Shown: piece by piece, positions 5,371-61,457 of the stretch
Numbering within the stretch: the stretch's first letter is position 1
How the letters are laid out: each line of letters opens with the position of its first letter
Virus record (IMG/VR): IMGVR_UViG_3300017938_000007
Coordinates: 44,010 to 108,009 of that record
DNA from: a virus
Reading direction: 5' to 3' (one strand)
DNA length: 64,000 bases
Program-made: the position numbers and the translations under genes
The notes under the pieces: generated by a model
What the model was told of the DNA's origin: nothing
What the model saw: the letters and a program-made list of their open reading frames with translations, nothing else
Database searches by the model: none

Positions 5371-5829
5371 TTAAAATACATTTAGAAGTGCAAATTCTCC
5401 AAATTTTTCTAGTGCTATTTCGTTGTAAGCCGCAGCAGCTTCTAATTCTTCGTTAAAATAGCCGACGTGTTTACCTGCGACGGTTGTTCGCCATTTGGCA
5501 TGACGTGGATACCAAGAAACACCTTTAAACTTAGATGTAACAGCGTGGTTGTTGTAGGATTGTTGTTTCGCTGCATTGGCTTGATTTTGGCTGTTGGTTG
5601 CCGACCGAAGATTGTGCCGCCGATTATTCAAAGGATTTCTATCCTTGTGATCAACTCTTGCTTTTATCTTCACGCCAAAAATGAATCGGTGTAGATAAAG
5701 ATGTTCTGCTGAATTCGACATGACATATCCGTTTTTAAGCAAAAGCCAACGAAACTGGTTGACGCGCTCAAAGTCGGAGTCGTCAATCAGAGCTTTTTTA
5801 TCGGTATTTGTCAGGTCAATTTCGCGCAT
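5371..5829 (-). CDS. HNH homing endonuclease with C-terminal AP2 DNA-binding domain
   Basis: A 152-residue protein. The N-terminal part contains the HNH core VDHKDRNPLNNRRHNLR (about residues 59-75). The C-terminal part (about 100-150) is an AP2 domain: SKFKGVSWYPRHAKWR, then a YFNEELEAAAAYNEIA helix. It is divergent from the glycosyltransferase gene, with a 24-nt gap holding the short hairpin GTTCTT-TT-AAGAAC. Two paralogues lie at 37722 and 60416. The gene is AT-rich relative to its neighbours, consistent with mobility. Confidence 0.9.
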   Translation of the reverse strand: MREIDLTNTDKKALIDDSDFERVNQFRWLLLKNGYVMSNSAEHLYLHRFIFGVKIKARVDHKDRNPLNNRRHNLRSATNSQNQANAAKQQSYNNHAVTSKFKGVSWYPRHAKWRTTVAGKHVGYFNEELEAAAAYNEIALEKFGEFALLNVF

Positions 5830-16120: not shown

Positions 16121-16360
16121 ATGAAACTTAAAGTAGTTCAGCTTGAAACAGATTGGATGACGAACTTAAAACGTCCAGAATTGGGTAAGGAATGGGCGAT
16201 TATTGACGAAGACCACAACGATTGCCCGGTCGTCTGTGTGGCTGTTACAGCGATTTCAGATTATCCGATGGAAGCATTGGAGGATATTTTAACTGTAATG
16301 TGCGAAAGATTCAATGTTTTTGAACCGTCTGAAAAGGTTAAACTAATCTTTGAGCACTGA
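16121..16360 (+). CDS. Small acidic protein (79 aa)
   Basis: Begins 11 nt after a TGTATACA sequence (about 16108-16115). The product is acidic alpha/beta (MKLKVVQLETDWMTNLKRP), with no known domain. It overlaps the end of the convergent HNH gene by 18 nt. Codon use is more AT-rich than upstream. Confidence 0.5.
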   Translation: MKLKVVQLETDWMTNLKRPELGKEWAIIDEDHNDCPVVCVAVTAISDYPMEALEDILTVMCERFNVFEPSEKVKLIFEH

Positions 16361-16945
16361 AGACACGCGGTACTCGTACACTCTTTTTACCCATGTGTAA
16401 AATTCAAGTTGTGGCATTTGTCGTTTAGCGTAGTTGCAAGTTTTACAACAGGGAACGGAGTTATTGACTGCGTAACCCAGTGTGTTGTTGATCCGATCTA
16501 TCCCGTTGTGTTTTACAATGCCGTTAAAAACGTTGGGTCGGTTTAAACGGCTTTTGTTGTTTCCTTGAACAGGAGTCGCGCCGCAGTAAAAACAATTTTG
16601 CTGTGTAATTTTGCAGAAATCGTCAAAATTAAGCTCGAAATTTATGCCTCGTATTTTGGCATTCTTTTCGTAATAGCCGAAGACGTAGCGCATGTACGCC
16701 AAGCCTTCTGGCTTTCTGCCACGTGGTTTGCTCGACAAAGATTCAATGAATAAGCAGCCACAACTTTTGGTTCTTCCTTCTGTAAGATGCGCCGTCCTAA
16801 CTATTGTTTTATTGCCGCAATCGCAAATGCAATGCCACATTGTATACATACCTGTTTTGGTTCGGACAGACTGGCTGGGCTTTACTACGATCAATCGTCC
16901 AAATTTTTTGCCGATTAAATTTATGCGTTTCATTTGGTTTATCAT
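16343..16945 (-). CDS. HNH homing endonuclease with zinc-finger N-terminus
   Basis: A 200-residue free-standing nuclease. The N-terminal segment contains a zinc-binding module (CICDCGNK ... SCGCL) typical of phage HNH homing enzymes. The C-terminal core has CFYCGATP, then HNGIDRINNTLGYAVNN, and a closing CCKTCNYAK. It is paralogous to the enzyme at 50494, with the same order and motifs. The ATG at 16945 directly abuts a TAGTTA (minus strand, 16951-16946). The gene is AT-rich and opposes its neighbours, as expected of an insert. Confidence 0.9.
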   Translation of the reverse strand: MINQMKRINLIGKKFGRLIVVKPSQSVRTKTGMYTMWHCICDCGNKTIVRTAHLTEGRTKSCGCLFIESLSSKPRGRKPEGLAYMRYVFGYYEKNAKIRGINFELNFDDFCKITQQNCFYCGATPVQGNNKSRLNRPNVFNGIVKHNGIDRINNTLGYAVNNSVPCCKTCNYAKRQMPQLEFYTWVKRVYEYRVSSVLKD

Positions 16946-21461: not shown

Positions 21462-22925
21462 ATGGTTATTCTAAATGAATCGGGAAGACCGATGTTGGCG
21501 TCGGATGGCGGTCACATCAGCCGCTTTACCGACATTCTTGAGTGGGGCTATCGACTGGCCGAAACGCCGGTCGGCGTCCCCGAAAAAAGTCCTCGCGGCC
21601 TCTGGGAGGCTCGCGGCTGGAAAGAGTTTGTCGCCCACATGCCGGAATACAAACGGCCTCTGGCGGCGATCATGCTCGAAAACTGCCGCAGCCGCTTTGG
21701 CCGGTTGGACGAAGTGACGCGCACGACCTCTCTCGGCACTTTCGATAAATGGATTTTTCCAATTATCGCGAACATGTCCGAGAACGACGTGATCGATCAA
21801 CTGGTTGCGTTGCAACCGATGGCTGGCCCGGTCAGCCAGATCGTCTACATGGACATCGTGACTGGCCGTCGCAAAGGCCGCACTCCGGCAGGCGCTCCGA
21901 TGTGGCGTGCTCTGCAAGGCGCAACTGACCGCGACGATGACGGTGACGAAATCGTTCAGGACGAGACGGGAACCAGCAATGGTTCCGGCGTCATTGTCTT
22001 GGAGTGGACGCCGATCCGCCCCGGTACTCTTACCGGCAGCGTCAGCACGACAAACATTGCTGACGATGGCAACGGCAACATCATCAACACGTCGACCAAC
22101 GCGACAATCGGTACGGTGGTTTATCAGGGTACCGGCGCGGGCACGGTCACGGTTAGCACGCTGACCTCGGCGAGCTACGACATCAACTACGCGTTCAACT
22201 CTGAAGGCAACCTTGCCATTCAGGATTATGAGATGAAGCTGTCGTCCACGCCGGTCACGGCCAAGGTGATGAAGCTCAAGACTCTCTGGTCGGAAGAAGC
22301 CGATCAGAACTTGCAAGCAATGTATAATATCAAGGCGGAGAGCGTCCTGCTCAATGCTTTGACGAATGCGTTGCAGTACCAGAAACACCGTCAGGTTATC
22401 TTCGACCTGCGCGCCAAGGCTGACGCTGGCTTCGTTGTGTGGGATGCGATTCCCCCGACGAGCGTCAACTACCAGACGCACAAGTTCTCGATCATCGACG
22501 CGTTTGAAACCGCGAGTAACTTCATCTTCGGCGCTACGAACATGGTGGCCGGTAACTGGTTACTGTTGGGCCTTCAGGCCGCGACGGTCGTTGCCACGCT
22601 GCCGCAGTTCGTACCCAAGAACAACCGGACACAGATGCAGGGTATCACCTACATCGGCGACCTTGGGAACAAGAAGGTTTTTGCTGATCCTCACTATCCC
22701 AACAACGAGTTCCTCGTTGGGCACAAGGGGGATCAATTTTTGACAACCGGTTATGTGCTCGCCGAGTATCAAAAATTGTACACAACGCCCGACATCGTCC
22801 TGCCGGACTTCATCCACCAGCGCGGGTTTGCGACCAGCTTCGCCCGGAAGATGGTGAATTCAAAAATGTACTGCCGTGGCCTGATTCAGAACAGTCCTAC
22901 TGCGTTTGGTCAGACCATTGGATAA
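21462..22925 (+). CDS. Major capsid protein, gp23-like
   Basis: A 487-residue HK97-fold capsid protein of the T4 type. It has RPLAAIMLENCRSRFGRLDE near the N-terminus, then PIIANMSENDVIDQLVALQP and VSQIVYMDIVTGRR, a Gly/Thr-rich insertion (about 175-245), and a conserved C-terminal half (WDAIPPTSVNYQTHKF, ATLPQFVPKN). The N-terminal arm would be removed by the upstream protease, perhaps after a hydrophobic-x-Glu such as RLAE (about residue 33). It is followed by a strong terminator. A partial paralogue of residues about 325-425 is encoded at 53420. Confidence 0.88.
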   Translation: MVILNESGRPMLASDGGHISRFTDILEWGYRLAETPVGVPEKSPRGLWEARGWKEFVAHMPEYKRPLAAIMLENCRSRFGRLDEVTRTTSLGTFDKWIFPIIANMSENDVIDQLVALQPMAGPVSQIVYMDIVTGRRKGRTPAGAPMWRALQGATDRDDDGDEIVQDETGTSNGSGVIVLEWTPIRPGTLTGSVSTTNIADDGNGNIINTSTNATIGTVVYQGTGAGTVTVSTLTSASYDINYAFNSEGNLAIQDYEMKLSSTPVTAKVMKLKTLWSEEADQNLQAMYNIKAESVLLNALTNALQYQKHRQVIFDLRAKADAGFVVWDAIPPTSVNYQTHKFSIIDAFETASNFIFGATNMVAGNWLLLGLQAATVVATLPQFVPKNNRTQMQGITYIGDLGNKKVFADPHYPNNEFLVGHKGDQFLTTGYVLAEYQKLYTTPDIVLPDFIHQRGFATSFARKMVNSKMYCRGLIQNSPTAFGQTIG

Positions 22926-22987: not shown

Positions 22988-23002
22988 TGTTATCCTTTGT
23001 TT

Positions 23003-23941
23003 ATGAAGAGCGAGTACACGAATGAACAGTTGATTGAACATGCCAAACAATTTGGAACCCGCGCTGATTGGCGGGCCGCAGGTGAAGTAGAACGTGGAGC
23101 AGGGCACCAAAGTCATTATGGCTGTGCAGTAAAGCGCGGCAGTGAATTTATACGCACATGCTGTGCGCACATGCCCAGTATGCGCGGTAAATTTACGCCT
23201 GTTCAGTATTCGGAAGAAGAAATTGCAGCGTCTGCTGCTAAGTTCAAACACCGTAATGACTGGAAAACTACGGAACCAAATTATTATCAAGCGGCGCATA
23301 GGCGGGGCCTTGTGGACAAGGTTGCAAGTCACATGGTGCCGCAGGCGCACCCCTATTCCGGCAGCTACATCGTTTATGCCTACGAATTTATTGACCGGCA
23401 CGTTTACGTCGGCCTGACCTTCCTGCCCAAAACCCGCCATGGCCAGCACATGCAGCGCGGCCCGGTTCACAATCACATGCAGGTCTGCGCCCAGTATACC
23501 TATAAAGTGATTCAGGACGCGCTTGGCAGCCCGCAGGAAGCCGTCCTGTGCGAGCGCCAGTGGATTACCCAGTACAAGGCCCAAAACTGGCAGATGCTCA
23601 ACGAAGCTGAAGGTGGAAGCCTTGGCACCGTCCAGATCACCAAGTGGACGAAAGAAGCTATCCTTGCCGAGGCCAAAAAGTACACTACCAAGCAGGAATG
23701 GATCGACAACAGCCAGATGTCCTACCGGCTGGCCAAGCGTGAAGGCTGGTTCAATGAAGCCGCAGCCCACATGCCCAAGCGGGTGTTGGGCATCGGTGCA
23801 GGCCGGATCGTATCAAAAGCTACCCGCCGTAAGCAGTGCGCTGCCAAGCTGGGCAAAAAGCTCACGCAGGCGCACAGGGAATCAATTTCAGAATCAATTA
23901 CCAATCACTGGAATCAAGTTCATGGCGGCGTGGTCGTTTAG
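23003..23941 (+). CDS. GIY-YIG homing endonuclease
   Basis: A 312-residue nuclease. Residues about 115-200 are the catalytic domain: SYIVYAYEFIDRHVYVGLTF is the GIY-YIG motif (variant VYA ... YVG), followed by the R of KTRHGQHMQR and a Glu in EAVLCERQWI. N-terminal and middle segments (SEYTNEQLIEHAKQF, WTKEAILAEAKKY) are repeated DNA-binding helices, and the C-terminus (RRKQCAAKLGKKLTQAHRE) resembles NUMOD3. It starts at ATG 23003 right after the capsid terminator. Typical free-standing homing gene beside a conserved target gene. Confidence 0.85.
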   Translation: MKSEYTNEQLIEHAKQFGTRADWRAAGEVERGAGHQSHYGCAVKRGSEFIRTCCAHMPSMRGKFTPVQYSEEEIAASAAKFKHRNDWKTTEPNYYQAAHRRGLVDKVASHMVPQAHPYSGSYIVYAYEFIDRHVYVGLTFLPKTRHGQHMQRGPVHNHMQVCAQYTYKVIQDALGSPQEAVLCERQWITQYKAQNWQMLNEAEGGSLGTVQITKWTKEAILAEAKKYTTKQEWIDNSQMSYRLAKREGWFNEAAAHMPKRVLGIGAGRIVSKATRRKQCAAKLGKKLTQAHRESISESITNHWNQVHGGVVV

Positions 23942-27230: not shown

Positions 27231-27794
27231 ATGAAAATCATTTGTACTGAATGCAAAGAACCTAAAAATCCAGAAGAACTGGTTAAGAATAGGAAAGTTT
27301 GTAAAGTTTGTCGCGTACGTAGAACTGTGCTTTGGCAACAGCGTAATAAGGAGAAGATTGGAGCAAAAGGTAAACGTTGGCGTGAAGAGCATAAGGAGCA
27401 AATTAAAGCGTATCACAAGCACTGGTATGCAACACATAAAGAAGCACATAAAGCGCGAGTGCAATCTGCTGCGCAGTTAAATCGCCAAAGATTTATAGCT
27501 TGGAAGGCTCAACAACACTGCTGTCGTTGTCCTGAAAATCACCCAGCTTGTTTGGAATTTCATCACCGTAACCCGGCACAAAAAGAAATGAACATTTCGC
27601 AAGCTTGGAGGCTAGGATATTCTTGGGAACACTTGATGCGTGAAATAGCAAAATGCGATATTTTATGCGCTAATTGTCATCGTAAGCTACATTACGAGGA
27701 AGGTCGAACAAATAAAAAGATTGCACGAGACTTTAAAAACGTAGACAGTTATCGCATTCTAAAAACCAATATAACCGCAGTACAACGTATTTAA
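27231..27794 (+). CDS. HNH endonuclease with N-terminal zinc finger
   Basis: A 187-residue protein. N-terminal Cys pairs (CTECKEPKN; CKVCRVRR) form a zinc module, followed by a very basic helix (KEKIGAKGKRWREEHKEQIK). The C-terminal HNH core has CRCPENHPACLEFHHRNPAQ, then ILCANCHRKLHYE. It is AT-rich. A likely free-standing homing nuclease at the edge of the 23-27.8 kb island. Confidence 0.85.
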   Translation: MKIICTECKEPKNPEELVKNRKVCKVCRVRRTVLWQQRNKEKIGAKGKRWREEHKEQIKAYHKHWYATHKEAHKARVQSAAQLNRQRFIAWKAQQHCCRCPENHPACLEFHHRNPAQKEMNISQAWRLGYSWEHLMREIAKCDILCANCHRKLHYEEGRTNKKIARDFKNVDSYRILKTNITAVQRI

Positions 27795-32435: not shown

Positions 32436-32900
32436 ATGATTAAAGCCGCTTACATGTGTAAAGAATGTAAGAAAACAAAGCCAATTTCTGAGTTTTATCT
32501 GGTCACACTCAAGACCGGCGCGCAGTATCCGCGATCACGTTGTAAACCATGCTATAATACCAATTCTTTAAAAGCATTCAGCCGACATCCTGAATGGTTG
32601 CGGCGAATGCACCAGAGGAAAAAAGAAAAACGAGCCGCATTACCATTTCGATTAGAAACGCTACGTGCGATGAACTTAACTATCGAAAAAGCTTTTGAAA
32701 TTTATACAGCACAGAAAGGCTTATGCGCTGTATGCCACAAGCCACCGGGAAAGCACAGATTAGCCTTAGACCACGATCATAAAACAGGAAAACCAAGACA
32801 ATTTCTTTGTGCTGGCTGCAACAGTGATCTTGCTGTGCTCGAAAGCGGGGAACACCTTAAAAAATTGCAGGATTATCTGGAAAAGCATCGGTGTAGTTAA
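32436..32900 (+). CDS. Recombination endonuclease VII-like protein
   Basis: A 154-residue protein. N-terminal Cys pairs (CKECKKTK; CKPCYN) form one zinc site. The C-terminal domain is the endonuclease VII/HNH fold: CAVCHKPPG, the catalytic LALDHDHKTGK, then LCAGCNSDLAVLE and a terminal helix. It may resolve branched DNA like T4 gp49, or act as a homing enzyme, as this fold does both. It is AT-rich and stands alone. Its stop overlaps the TAGTTA motif of the next gene. Confidence 0.85.
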   Translation: MIKAAYMCKECKKTKPISEFYLVTLKTGAQYPRSRCKPCYNTNSLKAFSRHPEWLRRMHQRKKEKRAALPFRLETLRAMNLTIEKAFEIYTAQKGLCAVCHKPPGKHRLALDHDHKTGKPRQFLCAGCNSDLAVLESGEHLKKLQDYLEKHRCS

Positions 32901-36838: not shown

Positions 36839-37732
36839 ATGGCTGTTGAAACCATCATTGACCCCGTCATCCAGCGCGATGATACGCTGCTTTGCGGCAG
36901 GCTTGTTGCACTTTCAACCACACGTTCGCCGTTTCAAGTTAAAAACCCTTTGACCTCACAACCGTATCAAGACGCAGTTTCGATAGATTTTCCGGCTATG
37001 CCGGATACGATTGAGTTGATGCGCTCGGCGGAGTACAAAGTACTGACTAATATGGTTATGCCGGACGGCGTACACCAGTACATGAAGACCAACGTACTTG
37101 AAATCCCGCTTTCATTTCGACTACATGCCGAAGATTCGGATTTTTGTCCGCAAGGAGCTTTAACACTGCTCCAGTTAGCAGCACGTCTACACTCGTTTAT
37201 TTTGCCAATTAGCTTGGGAAATTCAAATACTTCTTGCGCGGCAGTTCCGGCCAGCGACACTCAACTTGTTGACGATACACCGCCGCAAAATGTGCCTGCC
37301 GAAATTCCAAAGAGTGGAACTACAGACGCAAATGCACAGGAAATAAAGGCAGGAAAGACGGCAGATGTACAAACACCTATAACCGGAGCCAGCAGTGTTT
37401 CTAACCCCGTTACTTGCTGGTTGCACTTGATGTTCATTGACGATAATCAACCCGGTATTTCGTGCATCGGTTACGTGAAGGAAGTTGGGGTAAAACTCAA
37501 TGGGCCGTGGCGGCGTAGCGCATCTGGTGGGTTCAATCTGCCCACGTCGGGGGATTTTTCCTTTACCTTTGTCCATCGTCCGGGTCATGGTAACAGCAAT
37601 ATCGCTTCACAAATTTTGGGCGGTCTTGCCATTGCCCAGCAGCCGCAGGCGTATGCAAATACTGTCAAAGATAAACTCTTCAACACTAGGAATTTAGTTG
37701 TGGCGGCTAATTATCGTGGTTTCAGCGATTAA
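36839..37732 (+). CDS. Probable baseplate / tail-tube-initiator protein
   Basis: A 297-residue protein directly after the tape measure. The N-terminal half has beta segments (AVSIDFPAMPDTIELMRSAE; VLEIPLSFRLHAED) and the C-terminal half LMFIDDNQPGISCIGYVKEV, a pattern seen in tail-tube-like baseplate proteins. A disordered Asp/Pro/Thr linker (about 135-185) separates them. It probably caps the tube at the baseplate. The family is inferred from position. Confidence 0.5.
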   Translation: MAVETIIDPVIQRDDTLLCGRLVALSTTRSPFQVKNPLTSQPYQDAVSIDFPAMPDTIELMRSAEYKVLTNMVMPDGVHQYMKTNVLEIPLSFRLHAEDSDFCPQGALTLLQLAARLHSFILPISLGNSNTSCAAVPASDTQLVDDTPPQNVPAEIPKSGTTDANAQEIKAGKTADVQTPITGASSVSNPVTCWLHLMFIDDNQPGISCIGYVKEVGVKLNGPWRRSASGGFNLPTSGDFSFTFVHRPGHGNSNIASQILGGLAIAQQPQAYANTVKDKLFNTRNLVVAANYRGFSD

Positions 37733-38219
37733 ATGAAAAATTTAAGCTGGCGTATTCACCCCAGTATTCCAGTGCTTTTTTATCGTAGGCCCGCGCTGCT
37801 TCTTCCTCTGTTGGGTGTCGTCCTATAAAAAGTGTTTTACCGTTTACTTTGATGGTGGCGCGCCAGCGGTTTCTTTTTGGATCATACCAAACACCCTTGA
37901 ATTTGGACTTCGGAGTCGTTCCTGCCTGCGTTTTCTGTTTTAATCTATTGGCTCCGTTTAGCTTACAGTTGGACTTCCTGAGTACTGATTTCCGATTATC
38001 CAGTGTATTATGAAAACGGTGATCGACATGCTCACTCGGTGCGGCGCGCATGACGACACGGTGCATTTTTTCCATGTGACGATGGCCGTCCGCATCGTAT
38101 ACATGTCTGACGGCGTAGCCTTTTGAATCGCATGACCATTTTGGGCCTGCAATGATTCGTTCGTAATCCTCGTCGTCAACGATTGCAACTTTCCCTCTGG
38201 ATAGTTCGATTATCGCCAT
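37722..38219 (-). CDS. HNH homing endonuclease with AP2 domain (paralogue 2)
   Basis: A 165-residue protein of the same design as that at 5371: an N-terminal beta-rich HNH_3-like part with HRVVMR and EHVDHRFHNTLDNRK, then an AP2 domain (SKFKGVWYDPKRNRWRATIK, EEEAARAYDKKALEYWG). It overlaps the end of the convergent baseplate gene and its ATG lies inside the end of the gp46-like gene. Confidence 0.92.
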   Translation of the reverse strand: MAIIELSRGKVAIVDDEDYERIIAGPKWSCDSKGYAVRHVYDADGHRHMEKMHRVVMRAAPSEHVDHRFHNTLDNRKSVLRKSNCKLNGANRLKQKTQAGTTPKSKFKGVWYDPKRNRWRATIKVNGKTLFIGRHPTEEEAARAYDKKALEYWGEYASLNFSFNR

Positions 38220-47036: not shown

Positions 47037-47162
47037 TTATTACAAATGCTCGAAGTAAAGCGCCACCGTATACGAGAACTGGGTGTGCTGGACAGCCGGA
47101 TCGCAAAAAGTATTTCGATGACCGCAGTAGTTAAAGCGAGTGAAATAGAACGCACTTTGACG

Positions 47163-47609
47163 ATGTCAAAATTAAACAAAGCAGTTAACTCGTTGATGCC
47201 GCTGGAAGCGGCATATCTTGCGGGCATCGTTGATGGTGAGGGGTGCATTACAGCTTATCTGCACAAAGGCTATGTAAACGGAAGTCTTCAAGTGGGAAGC
47301 GTGAACAAAGAATTTTTGGAATCACTGAGAAAATTGGTGGGTACTGGCAGTATGGCCAGTAAAGGTCGCAGGTCTAAAAAAGCGAAGATTTTGTACGTTT
47401 GGCAAGTGCAAATGAAATCTTTGCCAAAATTGTTACCACAAATAATTCCATATCTACGCCTTAAAAAGCGGCAAGCTGAGTTGATGCTTGGCTTGGCTGA
47501 GTATTCCGAGCATCCGACAGTTTTTAACGCCGAGGATGCTTTTCAATCCGACGTAATCAGCCAATTCAGACAGTTAAATCGGCGTGGCGAAGTATTACAA
47601 AGTAATTAG
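47163..47609 (+). CDS. LAGLIDADG homing endonuclease (single motif)
   Basis: A 148-residue protein with AAYLAGIVDGEGCITAYLHK, a clear LAGLIDADG helix with catalytic Asp/Glu. Only one motif is seen, so it would act as a dimer. It starts at ATG 47163, after a TAGTTA at 47128. It is inserted between the tail completion and sheath genes. Upstream in-frame residues to 47046 are less certain. Confidence 0.85.
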   Translation: MSKLNKAVNSLMPLEAAYLAGIVDGEGCITAYLHKGYVNGSLQVGSVNKEFLESLRKLVGTGSMASKGRRSKKAKILYVWQVQMKSLPKLLPQIIPYLRLKKRQAELMLGLAEYSEHPTVFNAEDAFQSDVISQFRQLNRRGEVLQSN

Positions 47610-49882: not shown

Positions 49883-50494
49883 ATGGCACGGATGAACTTC
49901 AATAACACGTTTGGTGCGCAGAACTCAAACTTGGATTTGCAGCGCGTCGACCTGTGGAAGGTCACGCTTGAACTTCCATCGGTGTTGGGCGGCAGTTCCG
50001 CGTGGAATGAAAACGTCGAATTCGCCCTTGAAAAGTTTCCTTTCCCGGAACGCAGTCGGGAAATGATTCAGATCAAGTACATGCAGCAGACCAACTACCT
50101 GATCGGCGGCGACACGCCGACTCCGGCCATTGAAATTCCCGTGCGGTACGCTTTTGCCCAGCGCACGGCGGAGATTCTGGAGAAATGGTTCTGGCTCGTC
50201 TCGAACCCGCTGACCGGCGGTGTTGGTTTGACCACGCAGGTCAAAGGCAAGGGCATCATGCGCTGGCAGGTGCCGAACATGGCCCAGTTGATCGCCGACA
50301 TGAACAGCGGCGCGCAGTCCAGCCAGAATACGATGAACGAGGGCCTGATTTACGCGCTGGAAGGCTGCATCATCAAGGGTCTGCGCTTCGCCGATGCCGA
50401 TATGACACAAAGCGGGGCCGTGAACCTGTTGTTCAATTTGCAAATCGACCGGTATTATCCTTTAAACGTTAACGATATGCAGGTTGTCGTATAA
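49883..50494 (+). CDS. Tail tube protein, gp19-like
   Basis: A 203-residue tube protein directly after the sheath. It has VDLWKVTLELPSVLGGSSAW, FALEKFPFPERSREMIQIKY, a conserved VRYAFAQRTAEILEKWFWLV segment and a final beta strand pair (AVNLLFNLQIDRYYPLNVND), typical of the gp19 fold. It forms the inner tube. Its stop overlaps the start of an HNH gene. Confidence 0.85.
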   Translation: MARMNFNNTFGAQNSNLDLQRVDLWKVTLELPSVLGGSSAWNENVEFALEKFPFPERSREMIQIKYMQQTNYLIGGDTPTPAIEIPVRYAFAQRTAEILEKWFWLVSNPLTGGVGLTTQVKGKGIMRWQVPNMAQLIADMNSGAQSSQNTMNEGLIYALEGCIIKGLRFADADMTQSGAVNLLFNLQIDRYYPLNVNDMQVVV

Positions 50495-51072
50495 TGACTA
50501 TCCCAATTGAAATTGGAAAACGCTTTAATCGCTTAACTATTGTTGCTGATGCTGGCAGTAAGCGTGTCGGTAAAAACGGGGAATCAAAGCGCATGGTTAA
50601 GGCCAAGTGTGATTGTGGAGTTACCTGCTTGAAACAATTTGGTTTAGTTCGGCGTGGCGTTGTAAAAAGTTGTGGTTGTTTGCAACGAGAATGGGTTTCC
50701 AAACACGCTTTGAGCAGGAGAAAACCGTTGGGTGAATCGTCATTTCATGCTTTTTACAAGGGTTATTACTATGGGGCTAAGAAGCGAAAACTGGAATTTT
50801 CGCTAACAAAGGAACAGTTCAGCTATTTGGTGCAGCAAAAGTGTGTTTATTGTGGTGTTGATCCGATGGACGTGTTTCAACCACAAGCTCGATACGGCGG
50901 TTACATACATAACGGTATCGACAGGGTTGACAACAGCAAAGGTTATACGCTTGACAATTCTGTAACTGCTTGTCGCACGTGTAATCTTGCAAAAGGCACT
51001 ATGACATCACGTGAATTTGAAGCGTGGATTAACCGGCTTGTAGCGTATCGGCAGCAACAGGTAGTGGTCTGA
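50494..51072 (+). CDS. HNH homing endonuclease with zinc-finger N-terminus (paralogue)
   Basis: A 192-residue nuclease related to that at 16343. The N-terminal zinc module is KCDCGVTCLKQ ... SCGCLQ. The catalytic part is KCVYCGVDP, then HNGIDRVDNSKGYTLDNS and ACRTCNLAKG. It is AT-rich relative to neighbours and begins on the last base of the tube stop, so it was inserted in or next to the tube gene. Confidence 0.92.
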   Translation: MTIPIEIGKRFNRLTIVADAGSKRVGKNGESKRMVKAKCDCGVTCLKQFGLVRRGVVKSCGCLQREWVSKHALSRRKPLGESSFHAFYKGYYYGAKKRKLEFSLTKEQFSYLVQQKCVYCGVDPMDVFQPQARYGGYIHNGIDRVDNSKGYTLDNSVTACRTCNLAKGTMTSREFEAWINRLVAYRQQQVVV

Positions 51073-53419: not shown

Positions 53420-53836
53420 TTAAGCTTCAAAGTTAATGACCTTGATCCATGCGCAGACAGGTTTTCCGTTTTGGAGACAGCCCTGAAAATCCATTGCTTT
53501 GTCCCTGTCGAGCAGGACTTTCCTGCGGCTTACTTCTCCCAGCAAAACGTAGTCTCCTCGTTTAGGGAGCAGGCCGTTTTTGGTGGCTTCGGGTATAAAA
53601 TGCGGGAGGGTGGCGAGGATACGGGCGAACTGGAATCCCACGATTAGTTCCTCCGTTTGCTCGCTCGGATCAGTGCGCAGGGCGGCGCTGCACCTTTCTA
53701 CGGCGTCCAAGATGGTGAACTTATGGGCCTGAAAACTTACGCCGGTCGGTGTTGGGGTGGCATCCCAAGTGACTTTGTAATCAGGTGTGACGCTGAGCAA
53801 ATAATCTTTGGGCTTTATGTCGTCCGCTGGATTCAT
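53420..53836 (-). CDS. Stand-alone homologue of part of the major capsid protein
   Basis: A 138-residue protein starting at ATG 53836 (ATGA overlap with the upstream frameshift ORF). Its middle aligns with capsid residues about 325-425: VTWDATPTPTGVSFQAHKFT against VVWDAIPPTSVNYQTHKFSI, and ARILATLPHFIPE against ATVVATLPQFVPK, then a GEVSRRKVLLD strand against GDLGNKKVFAD. It lacks the rest of the HK97 fold. It may be a minor capsid-lattice component, an assembly modulator, or an independently evolved domain. It sits between a gp26-like gene and a nuclease. Confidence 0.65.
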   Translation of the reverse strand: MNPADDIKPKDYLLSVTPDYKVTWDATPTPTGVSFQAHKFTILDAVERCSAALRTDPSEQTEELIVGFQFARILATLPHFIPEATKNGLLPKRGDYVLLGEVSRRKVLLDRDKAMDFQGCLQNGKPVCAWIKVINFEA

Positions 53837-54009
53837 CGTACTCTTATGCGCCGGTTTTCTTCTTCCACGTTCTCGTTGCGCCACGCTACAAACAGCTTGA
53901 GGATGTCATCCGGTATCCGACTCAAATCTAAAATGAGACCTTTGCCGTCCCATGCGAGGTCGAATAAAATTCGATACCGGGCCTCACGCGAGTTCAGCGC
54001 GGCCTCAAC
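53833..54009 (-). CDS. Putative +1 frameshift extension of the gp26-like protein
   Basis: A 58-codon coding frame (VEAALNSREARYRILFDLAW ... LKLFVAWRNENVEEENRR) has no ATG or GTG at its start. It begins at the end of the gp26-like gene where GAC TTT TTT CGT TGA allows a +1 slip (TTT C to GTT GAG) past the stop. Its end overlaps the next ATG. The W/R/E-rich helical sequence resembles the second half of tail assembly chaperones, which are commonly made by frameshifting. Confidence 0.55.
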   Translation of the reverse strand, partial: VEAALNSREARYRILFDLAWDGKGLILDLSRIPDDILKLFVAWRNENVEEENRRIRVR

Positions 54010-54751
54010 GAAAAAAGTCTTGGTCGAAGCTCAGCAAATGCGTGAACTCTTTGCCGCAGTCATCGCAGATGTGCGGCAGGTTGGTGTTCAGGTGCGGGGA
54101 AAGTCTTCTTTCCTCCTCTTCGATAAATTTCGCGTCCCGTGGGTGCAGCGCTTTGACGTACGCGATCAATTCGTCAATCGTGTCCGGTTTGGAATCGTTG
54201 ATGGTGACGATGGGCAGCAGTTGGCGCAGCCGGGTGTCCGAAATGCGCTGTTTTTGTTCGGGGGGACGATCTTCGATGATTTTTTCGTCCTTCACCAAGA
54301 GAGGCCGGATACGGAGGATGTCTTTGCATTCCGGCAGGGTGATGTCGTCATAGCCGGGATAGCCATCAGCTTTTTCCCCGGCCTTTTCGAGTTCGTCGGG
54401 TACTTTGATCTGCTCCAGCTTTTTGTGGGCGCAGAACGGGCATTGGGACGTGTAATGCACGATGCCTTCGGTGGACAGGGCGCGGGCGACCAGCAAAATG
54501 GTTTGAACTTCATCGGCCACGAAGTCGTCCACCTTGGCTCCATTCAGTTCGCAAAGTTTGGCGACCAGTCCGAAGACCATTTGCTGCCGGGAAGCTTTGC
54601 GGGCCGACTCCACGAGGTATTCGTCAACTTCGCTGTCCCACGGGTACACCGTTATTTTTCCGCCCGGCCACGCCGTGCGGTTGGAGAAGCCGTGGGAGAT
54701 CAGCGTGATTTCACGTTTGAACGCCTGCCGCCGGGGGGTCAGGCTCTTCAT
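54005..54751 (-). CDS. Baseplate hub assembly / tail-chaperone-like protein (gp26-like)
   Basis: A 248-residue protein starting MKSLTPRRQAFKREITLISH with PGGKITVYPWDSEVDEYLVE, then a helical part with AVQ-like repeats, and two Cys pairs, CPFCAHKK (about residue 126) and CDDCGKEF near the end. The order resembles the T4-type base plate (gp26) family. It ends with TTTTTTCGTTGA, where +1 frameshifting would append 58 residues. Start at 54751 is preferred to 54769. Tail assembly chaperone is the alternative or additional role. Confidence 0.5.
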   Translation of the reverse strand: MKSLTPRRQAFKREITLISHGFSNRTAWPGGKITVYPWDSEVDEYLVESARKASRQQMVFGLVAKLCELNGAKVDDFVADEVQTILLVARALSTEGIVHYTSQCPFCAHKKLEQIKVPDELEKAGEKADGYPGYDDITLPECKDILRIRPLLVKDEKIIEDRPPEQKQRISDTRLRQLLPIVTINDSKPDTIDELIAYVKALHPRDAKFIEEEERRLSPHLNTNLPHICDDCGKEFTHLLSFDQDFFR

Positions 54752-54758
54752 GTTTGTT

Positions 54759-55448
54759 TTAATCGACAAGGGATACCTCCATAATTTGGTTGGCTGTTTT
54801 TTGTTTTCGTTTTAAAGCAACGTTTGCATCTTTATAAAGGGTTTTTATGACGCAATAGGCGTTCCAACCGTTGCATTTCACAGTGAAGCAAAATTGACTT
54901 GAAGTTTTTGATATGGCATAGGTGCAGCCAGTCAGCTTTTTTACATAATTTTTGAATTGTTCCGCTAATTTAGAACACGCGCACAATTGAATGAAGGGTA
55001 CTTTTGTTTTTCCGCTACGACTTATGTAAACTGATCCGTTACCATCAATAATGCCACGCCAAAAATCGCGGTCAACGGCTAGTGAGTCATCAATTGAGCA
55101 ACCTTTTGATTTACGCGGCTTAACACCTAGATTGAGTAACCGGTGCCAAATAGAAGGACTGATAAAAGCAAACCTCGCTTGCGTTGTTCGGCCAAAGTTG
55201 GTATTGTAAGTATACACTGTGATTTTGTGTTTCGATTTTAAAAATTCTCGAAAGCGCCTAATATGGGCCACGTCTTTAACACTCAGGTTAAGCGCAATCA
55301 TCTTATAGAACACAGTTTTTCCGCTTTTCCGCGTGCGTTTTGCCAGTGTCAAGCAGCCGTCTGCCATCAAAAATCCCACCCAGTAACGGGCTTCCGATGT
55401 GAGGCTGTCGAAAGCTTCGTGATCAATAGGTAAAAATGTTGTTTTCAC
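54759..55448 (-). CDS. LAGLIDADG homing endonuclease (two motifs)
   Basis: A 229-residue monomeric LAGLIDADG enzyme. Motif 1 is ARYWVGFLMADGCLT (about residues 20-34) and motif 2 is DFWRGIIDGNGSVYI (about 128-142), each with the catalytic acidic residue. It is AT-rich, and its 3' end overlaps the longest possible gp26-like start. Typical free-standing homing gene between structural genes. Confidence 0.92.
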   Translation of the reverse strand: MKTTFLPIDHEAFDSLTSEARYWVGFLMADGCLTLAKRTRKSGKTVFYKMIALNLSVKDVAHIRRFREFLKSKHKITVYTYNTNFGRTTQARFAFISPSIWHRLLNLGVKPRKSKGCSIDDSLAVDRDFWRGIIDGNGSVYISRSGKTKVPFIQLCACSKLAEQFKNYVKKLTGCTYAISKTSSQFCFTVKCNGWNAYCVIKTLYKDANVALKRKQKTANQIMEVSLVD

Positions 55449-59910: not shown

Positions 59911-60419
59911 TTCAAATCGATGCCGCTCAGTTCATGGCTGTGCCCGACCATTGTCTGCATCACCCGGATGACATTCACAAAGACGTACTGCGCGGGATCA
60001 GGCAACGCGTGTGGTAACGGGATGTATACAGGATTAGTGCTGGCCCCGGAGGCGCGGGAGCCGATGACTTGGATGACGCAATCACAGCCCATGACATCGG
60101 CGGCGGTGATGATCGTGGCATTGCGTTTTTCGGGATCATAGCCAATGTGGGACGTGACATAGGCGATTTGACCGGGTGCCTTCAAGGAGACATCAAACAT
60201 CAGCGGGCCGCGTTGCAGGCTGATGGCCGTGTTGGATTGCACAATGGAATTGCAGTAAAAACCGGCCTTGCTCAAAAGTTCCAGCACCTTGCTCAGGCCG
60301 ATACGGTACTGAGCGTTTCGCTCCGACCGGGTGATGGGCGGCGCAATTTTGGGTGGTTCATACTTCGTGACTGCGCCATCGGTGGCGACAATCCAGCCGA
60401 TCTGAGGCGGAGGATTCAT
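59856..60419 (-). CDS. Hypothetical protein (187 aa)
   Basis: Coupled to the upstream AP2-HNH gene by ATGA. The protein is beta-rich: QIGWIVATDGAVTKYEPPKI, FDVSLKAPGQIAYVTSHIGY and a conserved ADVMGCDCVIQVIGSR segment. The composition resembles small structural or adaptor proteins, but no family is recognised. Confidence 0.6.
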   Translation of the reverse strand: MNPPPQIGWIVATDGAVTKYEPPKIAPPITRSERNAQYRIGLSKVLELLSKAGFYCNSIVQSNTAISLQRGPLMFDVSLKAPGQIAYVTSHIGYDPEKRNATIITAADVMGCDCVIQVIGSRASGASTNPVYIPLPHALPDPAQYVFVNVIRVMQTMVGHSHELSGIDLNQVGDQSHAFIDIGLPGN

Positions 60420-60898
60420 ACTGCGTTGAGACGCGCAAAATCAGCCCCAAAATGTTCAATCGCGGCAGTGTTGTATGCCCGTGCAGCTTCTGTTTCGTCA
60501 ACAAAAACTCCCAAATGAAGTGTATTACGTGGGTGTGAAGTACGTAAGCTTGCTCTCCATTTTTGTGTAAACTTGTGCCAACTAACACCGCGAAATTTGG
60601 ATGTTTTACCGGTTTTATTCCAAATAGAATTACCGAGATTTTGAGTTTGTGTAGCTGGCCTCAGATTTTCTTTTCGACAATCAAGTTTGTTTCCAAATTT
60701 GTGGTCAATTCTTATGCCTTTGATAGCTCTCATCACGAGCCTATGCAGATAGGTTGCAGTGTATTTTCCATTTATGCTGCGGGTATTGACTACGTAGCCA
60801 TGATGAGCTAAACGCCAGCGTAAATTTACGGTTAACGGCAGGTCTTCGTCGTCTACTAGAGCCTGCTTATCCGAATTCCAAAGTTGCAAAAACGCCAT
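60416..60898 (-). CDS. HNH homing endonuclease with AP2 domain (paralogue 3)
   Basis: A 160-residue protein starting at ATG 60898 (MAFLQLWNSDKQALVDDEDL). HNH core: GIRIDHKFGNKLDCRKENLR. AP2 domain: SKFRGVSWHKFTQKWRASLR then ETEAARAYNTAAIEHFG. Third member of the family at 5371 and 37722, with the same design. A longer reading frame to 61309 is a shadow of the decoration-like gene. Confidence 0.92.
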   Translation of the reverse strand: MAFLQLWNSDKQALVDDEDLPLTVNLRWRLAHHGYVVNTRSINGKYTATYLHRLVMRAIKGIRIDHKFGNKLDCRKENLRPATQTQNLGNSIWNKTGKTSKFRGVSWHKFTQKWRASLRTSHPRNTLHLGVFVDETEAARAYNTAAIEHFGADFARLNAV

Positions 60899-60910
60899 AT
60901 CAACAAGAAC

Positions 60911-60942
60911 AAAAAGGCCGCTCGAAAATTCGAGCGGCCTTT
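60911..60942 (-). terminator. Rho-independent terminator (near-perfect palindrome)
   Basis: A 14-bp stem (60913-60926 with 60929-60942) has a 2-nt centre and a minus-strand T-run (from the A-run at 60911-60915). It ends transcription of the decoration-like gene at 60963-61457, just before the homing gene. Confidence 0.9.
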
Positions 60943-60962
60943 GGTGCTCACGGGAAAACGTT

Positions 60963-61457
60963 TTAGACGCCTTCCGCAGTGAAGTCGATGTTGCCCGAAC
61001 CGGCTTGGATGTTGCCAGAAGCCGTGGTGGCAGGCCCAGCGGGCGTGCCCCATTTCTTCTTGAGTTCGAGCTTGTTGAAGCCTTCGTCGTAGCCCCAGCC
61101 CCGACGACCAACCGCCACGATGTCGATCTGCGCGTTGCGCAGGTCGGCCTTGTTGCGAATGACAGCCGAGATGTTGACCGTGGTACTGCCAGAGCCGAAA
61201 AACGCCACCCGTTTGGAGAGCAGGACGTACGACTTGGTAATAACACCGCCGGGAACCACTGTAAAGGCCGAGCCGACCAAAGCGTAGCCGGAAGGGGAAG
61301 TCGAGCCATCGTACTGCATCAACTTGATATAAGCCTGATTAGGGCCTGTATTCTCGAAGACGAAGTCAATGTTCCCCAACTTGTCGTTCGCGGATTGCGC
61401 GTAACCAGCAAACACTTGTGCATCGGTGCCGAAGCCAATTGCAGATAGTTGGTTCAT
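60963..61457 (-). CDS. Decoration-like beta-sandwich protein 3
   Basis: A 164-residue protein. IDFVFENTGPNQAYIKLMQY ... GSAFTVVPGGVITKSYVLLS corresponds to the cores at 42331 and 52228. It has a longer C-terminal extension with WGYDEGFNKLELKKKWG and a Gly/Ser/Thr-rich end. It stands alone with a terminator, suggesting strong late expression, consistent with a capsid or tail decoration protein. Confidence 0.6.
   Translation of the reverse strand: MNQLSAIGFGTDAQVFAGYAQSANDKLGNIDFVFENTGPNQAYIKLMQYDGSTSPSGYALVGSAFTVVPGGVITKSYVLLSKRVAFFGSGSTTVNISAVIRNKADLRNAQIDIVAVGRRGWGYDEGFNKLELKKKWGTPAGPATTASGNIQAGSGNIDFTAEGV

Follow-up and report, generated by a model that had tools for sequence, protein, structure and literature searches.

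A probable +1 frameshift at the end of a gp26-like gene, a candidate tail assembly chaperone gene, in an uncultured virus and its relatives

The gp26-like gene and its out-of-frame extension

The 64,000-nucleotide stretch of DNA analyzed here (hereafter, the window) is a portion of a 108-kb uncultured virus record and carries on its minus strand a gp26-like gene (Table 1). Read directly from the sequence, this gene starts with TTG, encodes 254 amino acid residues, and ends with GAC TTT TTT CGT TGA, the protein terminating in FFR. By profile match, its product is a member of the T4 gp26 family: it hits PF12322 (T4_baseplate, T4 gp26) with a score of 24.5 bits, equal to the gathering cut-off of 24.5 (E = 2.5e-5), and phrog_150 (baseplate hub) with E = 2.5e-9; the relative from phage SP-15 matches PF12322 with E = 1.5e-29. 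The neighbors of the gene in the window are hub-like and exonuclease genes, and no recognized tape measure gene adjoins it. An ORF for a LAGLIDADG homing endonuclease (54759-55448, minus strand) overlaps with its end the TTG start of the gp26-like gene, and inspection of the sequence suggests possible free-standing homing endonuclease ORFs at 5371-5829, 16343-16945, 22997-23941, 27231-27794, 32436-32900, 37722-38219, 47046-47609, 50494-51072, and 60416-61309.

Past the two terminal Phe codons, the +1 frame remains open and translates as VEAALNSREARYRILFDLAWDGKGLILDLSRIPDDILKLFVAWRNENVEEENRRIRVR up to its stop codon. Joined to the upstream part of the gene product, this extension would give a fused protein of 311 residues (...DFF-VEAALN...RIRVR, the junction following the second Phe), and the match to phrog_21366 improves when the fused protein is the query. 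The preliminary description of this locus gave the gene end, the 58-codon +1 stretch, and the overlap of its stop with the next ATG correctly, both in coordinates and in sequence. It was also right about the absence of ATG or GTG near the beginning of the extension: the first possible start codon in the +1 frame is a TTG located 28 codons into it, so that no independent start lies near its beginning. Its characterization of the stretch as rich in Trp, Arg, and Glu is loose with respect to Trp, of which there are only two residues. An open stretch of this length is not very rare by chance alone, but chance is removed as an explanation by the conservation of the extension in relatives (see below).

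The ORF right after the extension (53420-53836, minus strand) shows 38% identity over 90 residues to the window's own capsid-like protein (residues 325-409 of the 21462-22925 product, E = 1e-14), a similarity that identifies it as a partial capsid protein paralogue. In the 35 other distinct relatives, the surroundings of gp26 contained no match to this ORF.

Table 1. Features of the gp26-like gene and its +1-frame extension in the window
Feature	Coordinates	Strand	Basis or remark
gp26-like gene; 0-frame product, the short form, TAC-N candidate	54005..54769	minus	PF12322, phrog_150, 50 relatives, AF2 model
0-frame stop TGA	54005..54007	minus	Position varies, 1-52 codons past FF in relatives
Slip site TTTTTTCG, 0-frame TTT TTT CGT	54009..54016	minus	Invariant in 36/36 distinct sequences and in L097
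Proposed P-site UUU, re-pairing +1 to UUC	UUU, 54013-54011; UUC, 54012-54010	minus	Within the slip site
+1-frame extension, 58 codons and TGA, TAC-C candidate	53833..54009	minus	pN/pS, profile similarity, two helices
ATGA overlap of extension stop and next ORF start	53833..53836	minus	Same layout in 21/36 distinct sequences, including the window

Conservation of the slip site and of the +1 frame

Direct IMG/VR searches with the window gp26-like protein or with the extension gave no matches, since the exact 8-residue patterns that they employ are too strict. Kin were instead collected via the capsid protein, gp26 was located inside those records, and an alignment search of IMG/VR then yielded 50 loci with gp26 identities of 31-61%. 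There are 37 distinct sequences in all; the statistics cover 36 of them, including the window, with locus L097 left out. In L097, around position 2215, a TAG interrupts the gp26-like gene after its last zinc-ribbon Cys and before the slip site, and both the slip site and the extension are intact despite this upstream TAG.

The eight nucleotides TTTTTTCG are invariant across the 50 related viral loci, and their flanks vary among the 36 distinct sequences. Both Phe codons of the site are TTT in every one of the 36 distinct genes; upstream in the same genes, TTT accounts for 37% of the Phe codons (100/272). The +1 frame is open for 53-65 codons in all 50 relatives. Thus, the comparison of the slip site and the frames among relatives that the preliminary description had proposed gave a strongly positive result. 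The same observations dispose of a sequencing or assembly indel in the T-run, which that description had also considered: homopolymers are indeed error-prone, but the same site and the same frame relation recur in 50 other loci, most of them differing in sequence (37 distinct sequences in all). This explanation is refuted, and its probability is negligible.

Within the extension, 93 pairwise comparisons gave a pN/pS ratio of 0.36 for the +1 frame, against 1.70 for the 0-frame and 1.16 for the −1 frame; since the sequences are related, these pairs are not statistically independent, but relatedness does not explain the contrast between the frames. These values indicate purifying selection on the +1 frame only, the other two frames being free of it. 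Among the relatives, the 0-frame stop is found anywhere from 1 to 52 codons past the two Phe codons, which means that the 0-frame tail is not conserved and that the gene continues in the +1 frame. The conserved protein pattern in that frame is F-x-LAW-x-x-x-G-L...VPD...WRNE, and conservation starts directly at the slip site (V-x-A-[AS]).

The closeness of the 0-frame stop and the extension in the window would fit a separate small protein, produced from an internal start or by re-initiation near that stop. Such an origin of the extension is very unlikely: no ATG, GTG, or TTG occurs in the first 28 extension codons of the window, conservation runs from the slip site itself, and the 0-frame stop can be as far as 52 codons away in relatives. 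It had been suggested at the outset that relatives could encode the extension from its own start codon; no conserved start codon for it was found in any relative group.

Direction of the shift in the wider family and the candidate function

Named relatives were reached through a remote match within a 484-kb phage record, and two further IMG/VR scans, counted together with the named phages, covered two more gp26-like groups. Among the named phages, the extension is in the +1 frame in Microcystis phage Mel-JY01, Flavobacterium phage immuto, Streptococcus phage SagM-GXN1, Listeria phage LIS04, Bacillus phage SP-15, and LR756508, and in the −1 frame, at T TTT TTC or T TTT TTT, in Agrobacterium phage Atu_ph07, Pseudomonas phage PA5oct, and Stenotrophomonas phage RAS14. 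The first of the two further groups includes at least 72 clear +1 loci, at least 5 loci with both frames open, at least 4 truncated loci, and at least 1 locus with a −1 arrangement; in the second, the extension is in the +1 frame in all 31 classifiable loci. The sites in these two groups are mostly TTT TTT TGG, TTT TTT TAC, or TTT TTT CGN (i.e., UUU_U or UUU_C); exceptions without the full T-run are TTC TTT CGT, TTC TTT TGG, and xxx TTT CTT, and a few members of the SP-15-type group have no clear UUU_Y site. In the single −1 locus (L181, around position 2226), a relative of the +1 group, the extension follows TTC TTT TGG CCC, which represents either a true direction switch or a sequence error. 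Four loci (L228, L231, L233, and L237) have a +1 extension near the gene end, with TTA or CTA followed by TTY AAT CCC AGT in place of UUU_C; in this subgroup, the shift may occur at CCC_A.

As judged from these sequences, +1 is the rule in three gp26-like groups, whereas −1 is used in the same family by the cyanophages and by several jumbo phages. The link to frameshifted tail chaperones drawn in the initial view is supported, and the +1 shift, which that view called unusual for such a protein, is not an isolated case.

The diversity of the sites also bears on two other ways of reaching the extension frame. In a −2 ribosomal frameshift, for which phage Mu provides a precedent (PMC5009743), the P-site UUU would move back two bases within the T6 run and enter the same frame with one extra Phe, so that the junction peptide would be DFFFVEAALNSR rather than the ...DFFVEAALNSR expected from a +1 slip. 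Perfect re-pairing is possible on T6, and this run is invariant in the window's group even though a single-tRNA +1 slip needs just UUU_C. However, with TTC TTT CGT, TTC TTT TGG, or AAC TTT C at the site, as in some relatives, a −2 slip would lead to mis-pairing, yet their extension frame is unchanged, and a −2 shift is unlikely. RNA polymerase slippage on T6, by which some mRNAs would be one U short or two U longer, is likewise compatible with the invariant run, but T6 is short for such slippage and relatives without a homopolymer run retain the arrangement, so that this mechanism is even less probable than the −2 shift. In the window itself, both retain a low probability; for the family as a whole, the relatives lacking the T-run disfavor both and leave +1 ribosomal slippage as the preferred explanation.

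Profile comparisons of the extensions gave probabilities of 97.5 for the first wide group against the SP-15 group, 95.6 for the first wide group against the −1 set that includes T4 gp51, and 84.0 for the window group against the first wide group (91.2 against all combined). The window-group and SP-15-type extensions produced no significant direct alignment (probability 1.8) and are joined only via the third group. With +1 and −1 extensions linked in this way, a single homologous domain, reached by various routes, is the most likely interpretation of the extension. A tblastn match in Halorubrum virus Serpecor1 was judged to be a chance CxxC match.

In the cyanophages S-PM2 and P-SSM2, which belong to the same family, the gp26 gene ends with T TTT TTC GCA (or GTA) TAA and is followed by a 61-codon extension in the −1 frame. 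The slip there is on two Phe codons and the same letters TTTTTTCG, but these are read in the other phase (xxT TTT TTC G..), so that the chaperone and extension frames are swapped relative to the window. Phage T4 has short and long forms that share the N-terminal part: gp26 and gp51 each match PF12322, and gp51 carries an additional C-terminus similar to the cyanophage extension. T4 encodes them in two genes (26, short; 51, long), unlike the window group, with its one gene and +1 shift. The T4 arrangement is in line with the use of two genes that Vladimirov, Gautam and Davidson (2022) reported for T4-like phages, as cited in PMC10885494 and PMC12846349; the polyT signals of such phages are cited as −1.

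The position of the gene in several relatives appears to be the classical one of a tail assembly chaperone gene: the tape measure gene comes next in immuto, LIS04, and SP-15 (loci L005, L008, and L010), and in Mel-JY01, LIS04, and SP-15 (L004, L008, and L010) the tail tube gene comes before it. As in the lambda G/GT type, the 3′ end of the short gene leads into a conserved C-terminal extension in another frame. The short form and the extension were modeled apart. With the short form modeled by AlphaFold2 (pLDDT 87), the best match among solved structures is YqbN (Z = 7.2 over 85 residues, 3.7 Å; weak, Z being below 8); the HK97 tail assembly chaperone follows with a weak Z of 4.9, tied with the Vibrio PICI protein 5ir0 (Z = 4.9), and the remaining matches have Z values near 2. 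Foldseek ranks the HK97 chaperone first, at a nonsignificant level. The extension is predicted to form two confident helices (pLDDT 90), and a fold search with the extension alone returned no usable match. Lambda gpG/gpGT and HK97 gp13 also exist in a short form and a frameshift-extended one, encoded near the tape measure gene as in several of the relatives here, but they use a −1 shift, belong to a different sequence family, and lack the zinc ribbon. The structural matches, the gene order in relatives, and the relation to T4 together make tail assembly chaperone activity of the lambda G/GT type the most plausible prediction of function.

Proposed mechanism and implications

The pattern of conservation makes it very probable that +1 slippage of tRNA-Phe yields short and long forms of a tail assembly chaperone; here, we infer the ribosomal +1 mechanism, the minority status of the long product, and the chaperone function. 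Most ribosomes would read TTT TTT CGT in frame and stop soon after, producing the short form. A minority would slip one base forward, with tRNA-Phe (anticodon GAA), bound to UUU by G-U wobble, re-pairing with the overlapping UUC and the preceding tRNA-Phe probably moving in tandem; decoding would then restart at GUU and add the 58-residue helical C-terminal domain. The change from UUU to UUC is a favorable forward re-pairing for this tRNA, and it is available to the P-site tRNA at the invariant site. If lambda gpG/gpGT serves as a guide, the part common to both forms would coat the tape measure protein, and tail tube subunits would be recruited by the extra domain.

A stop codon in the A-site is not needed, given the variable distance to the 0-frame stop; the frameshift proposed in the preliminary description is thus supported by the relatives, but the adjacent 0-frame TGA is not part of the signal. 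The A-site codon in the window group is CGY, with one CGA, and is not obviously slow. A Shine-Dalgarno-like CAGGAG directly precedes the site in 7 of the 36 sequences and may help slippage; across all 36, anti-SD pairing is strongest right beside the site and weak on average. No conserved 3′ RNA structure was found downstream of the site (mean fold z of about −1). That the first TTT never varies suggests a role for both Phe codons, in tandem slippage or otherwise in −2 or polymerase slippage.

Earlier work describes tail chaperones made by frameshifting, the gp26/gp51 pair of T4-like phages, and a +1 case in HSTV-2 (PMC5009743). In the latter, a haloarchaeal myovirus, a +1 shift in the tail assembly chaperone gene was considered very likely (PMC5009743), and its +1 frame can be entered at TCC TTT CGC (locus L127, around position 1490), the same UUU_CG as in the window, although this is an archaeal virus and its protein is apparently unrelated to the gp26 family. 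At the +1 sites of RF2 (prfB), Listeria phage PSA, and SPP1, the P-site tRNA also re-pairs +1 (PMC5009743, PMC6316719), but the codons at these sites are for Leu or Pro and adjoin a stop or come with a rare codon, in contrast to the Phe codons of the window, which need no nearby stop. In the literature consulted, which covers Vladimirov 2022 through the papers that cite it, no description was found of a large +1 group in the gp26 family, of an invariant UUUUUUCG site, or of a mirror-image use of one motif for −1 and +1 shifts.

A broader and more tentative proposal, which we consider somewhat short of probable, is that one family uses one motif, UUUUUUCG, in two phases, −1 in the cyanophages and +1 in the window group, with the frames exchanged and the direction reversed around a fixed motif. 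In the −1 phase, U UUU UUC would slip back to UUU UUU; in the +1 phase, UUU UUU C would slip forward to U UUU UUC, a tandem forward slip of two tRNA-Phe that mirrors the −1 heptamer. If this is true, UUU_Y would serve tailed viruses, HSTV-2 perhaps among them, as a general site of forward slippage. According to the PRFect paper, a general motif for forward frameshifts has yet to be identified (PMC10885494). The gp26-like genes provide a natural data set of well over 100 loci with a sharp candidate motif, UUU_C or UUU_U, most often placed after a first UUU. As sister groups use −1 at the same residues, what sets the direction of slippage becomes directly testable, as does the question of how a virus can switch direction and still maintain the proportion of short to long form. 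Annotation is corrected as well: in the annotated relatives examined, the extension is either missing from the gene table or given as a hypothetical gene. The apparent +1 shift, as opposed to the usual −1, would extend over a very large set of viruses, most of them uncultured.
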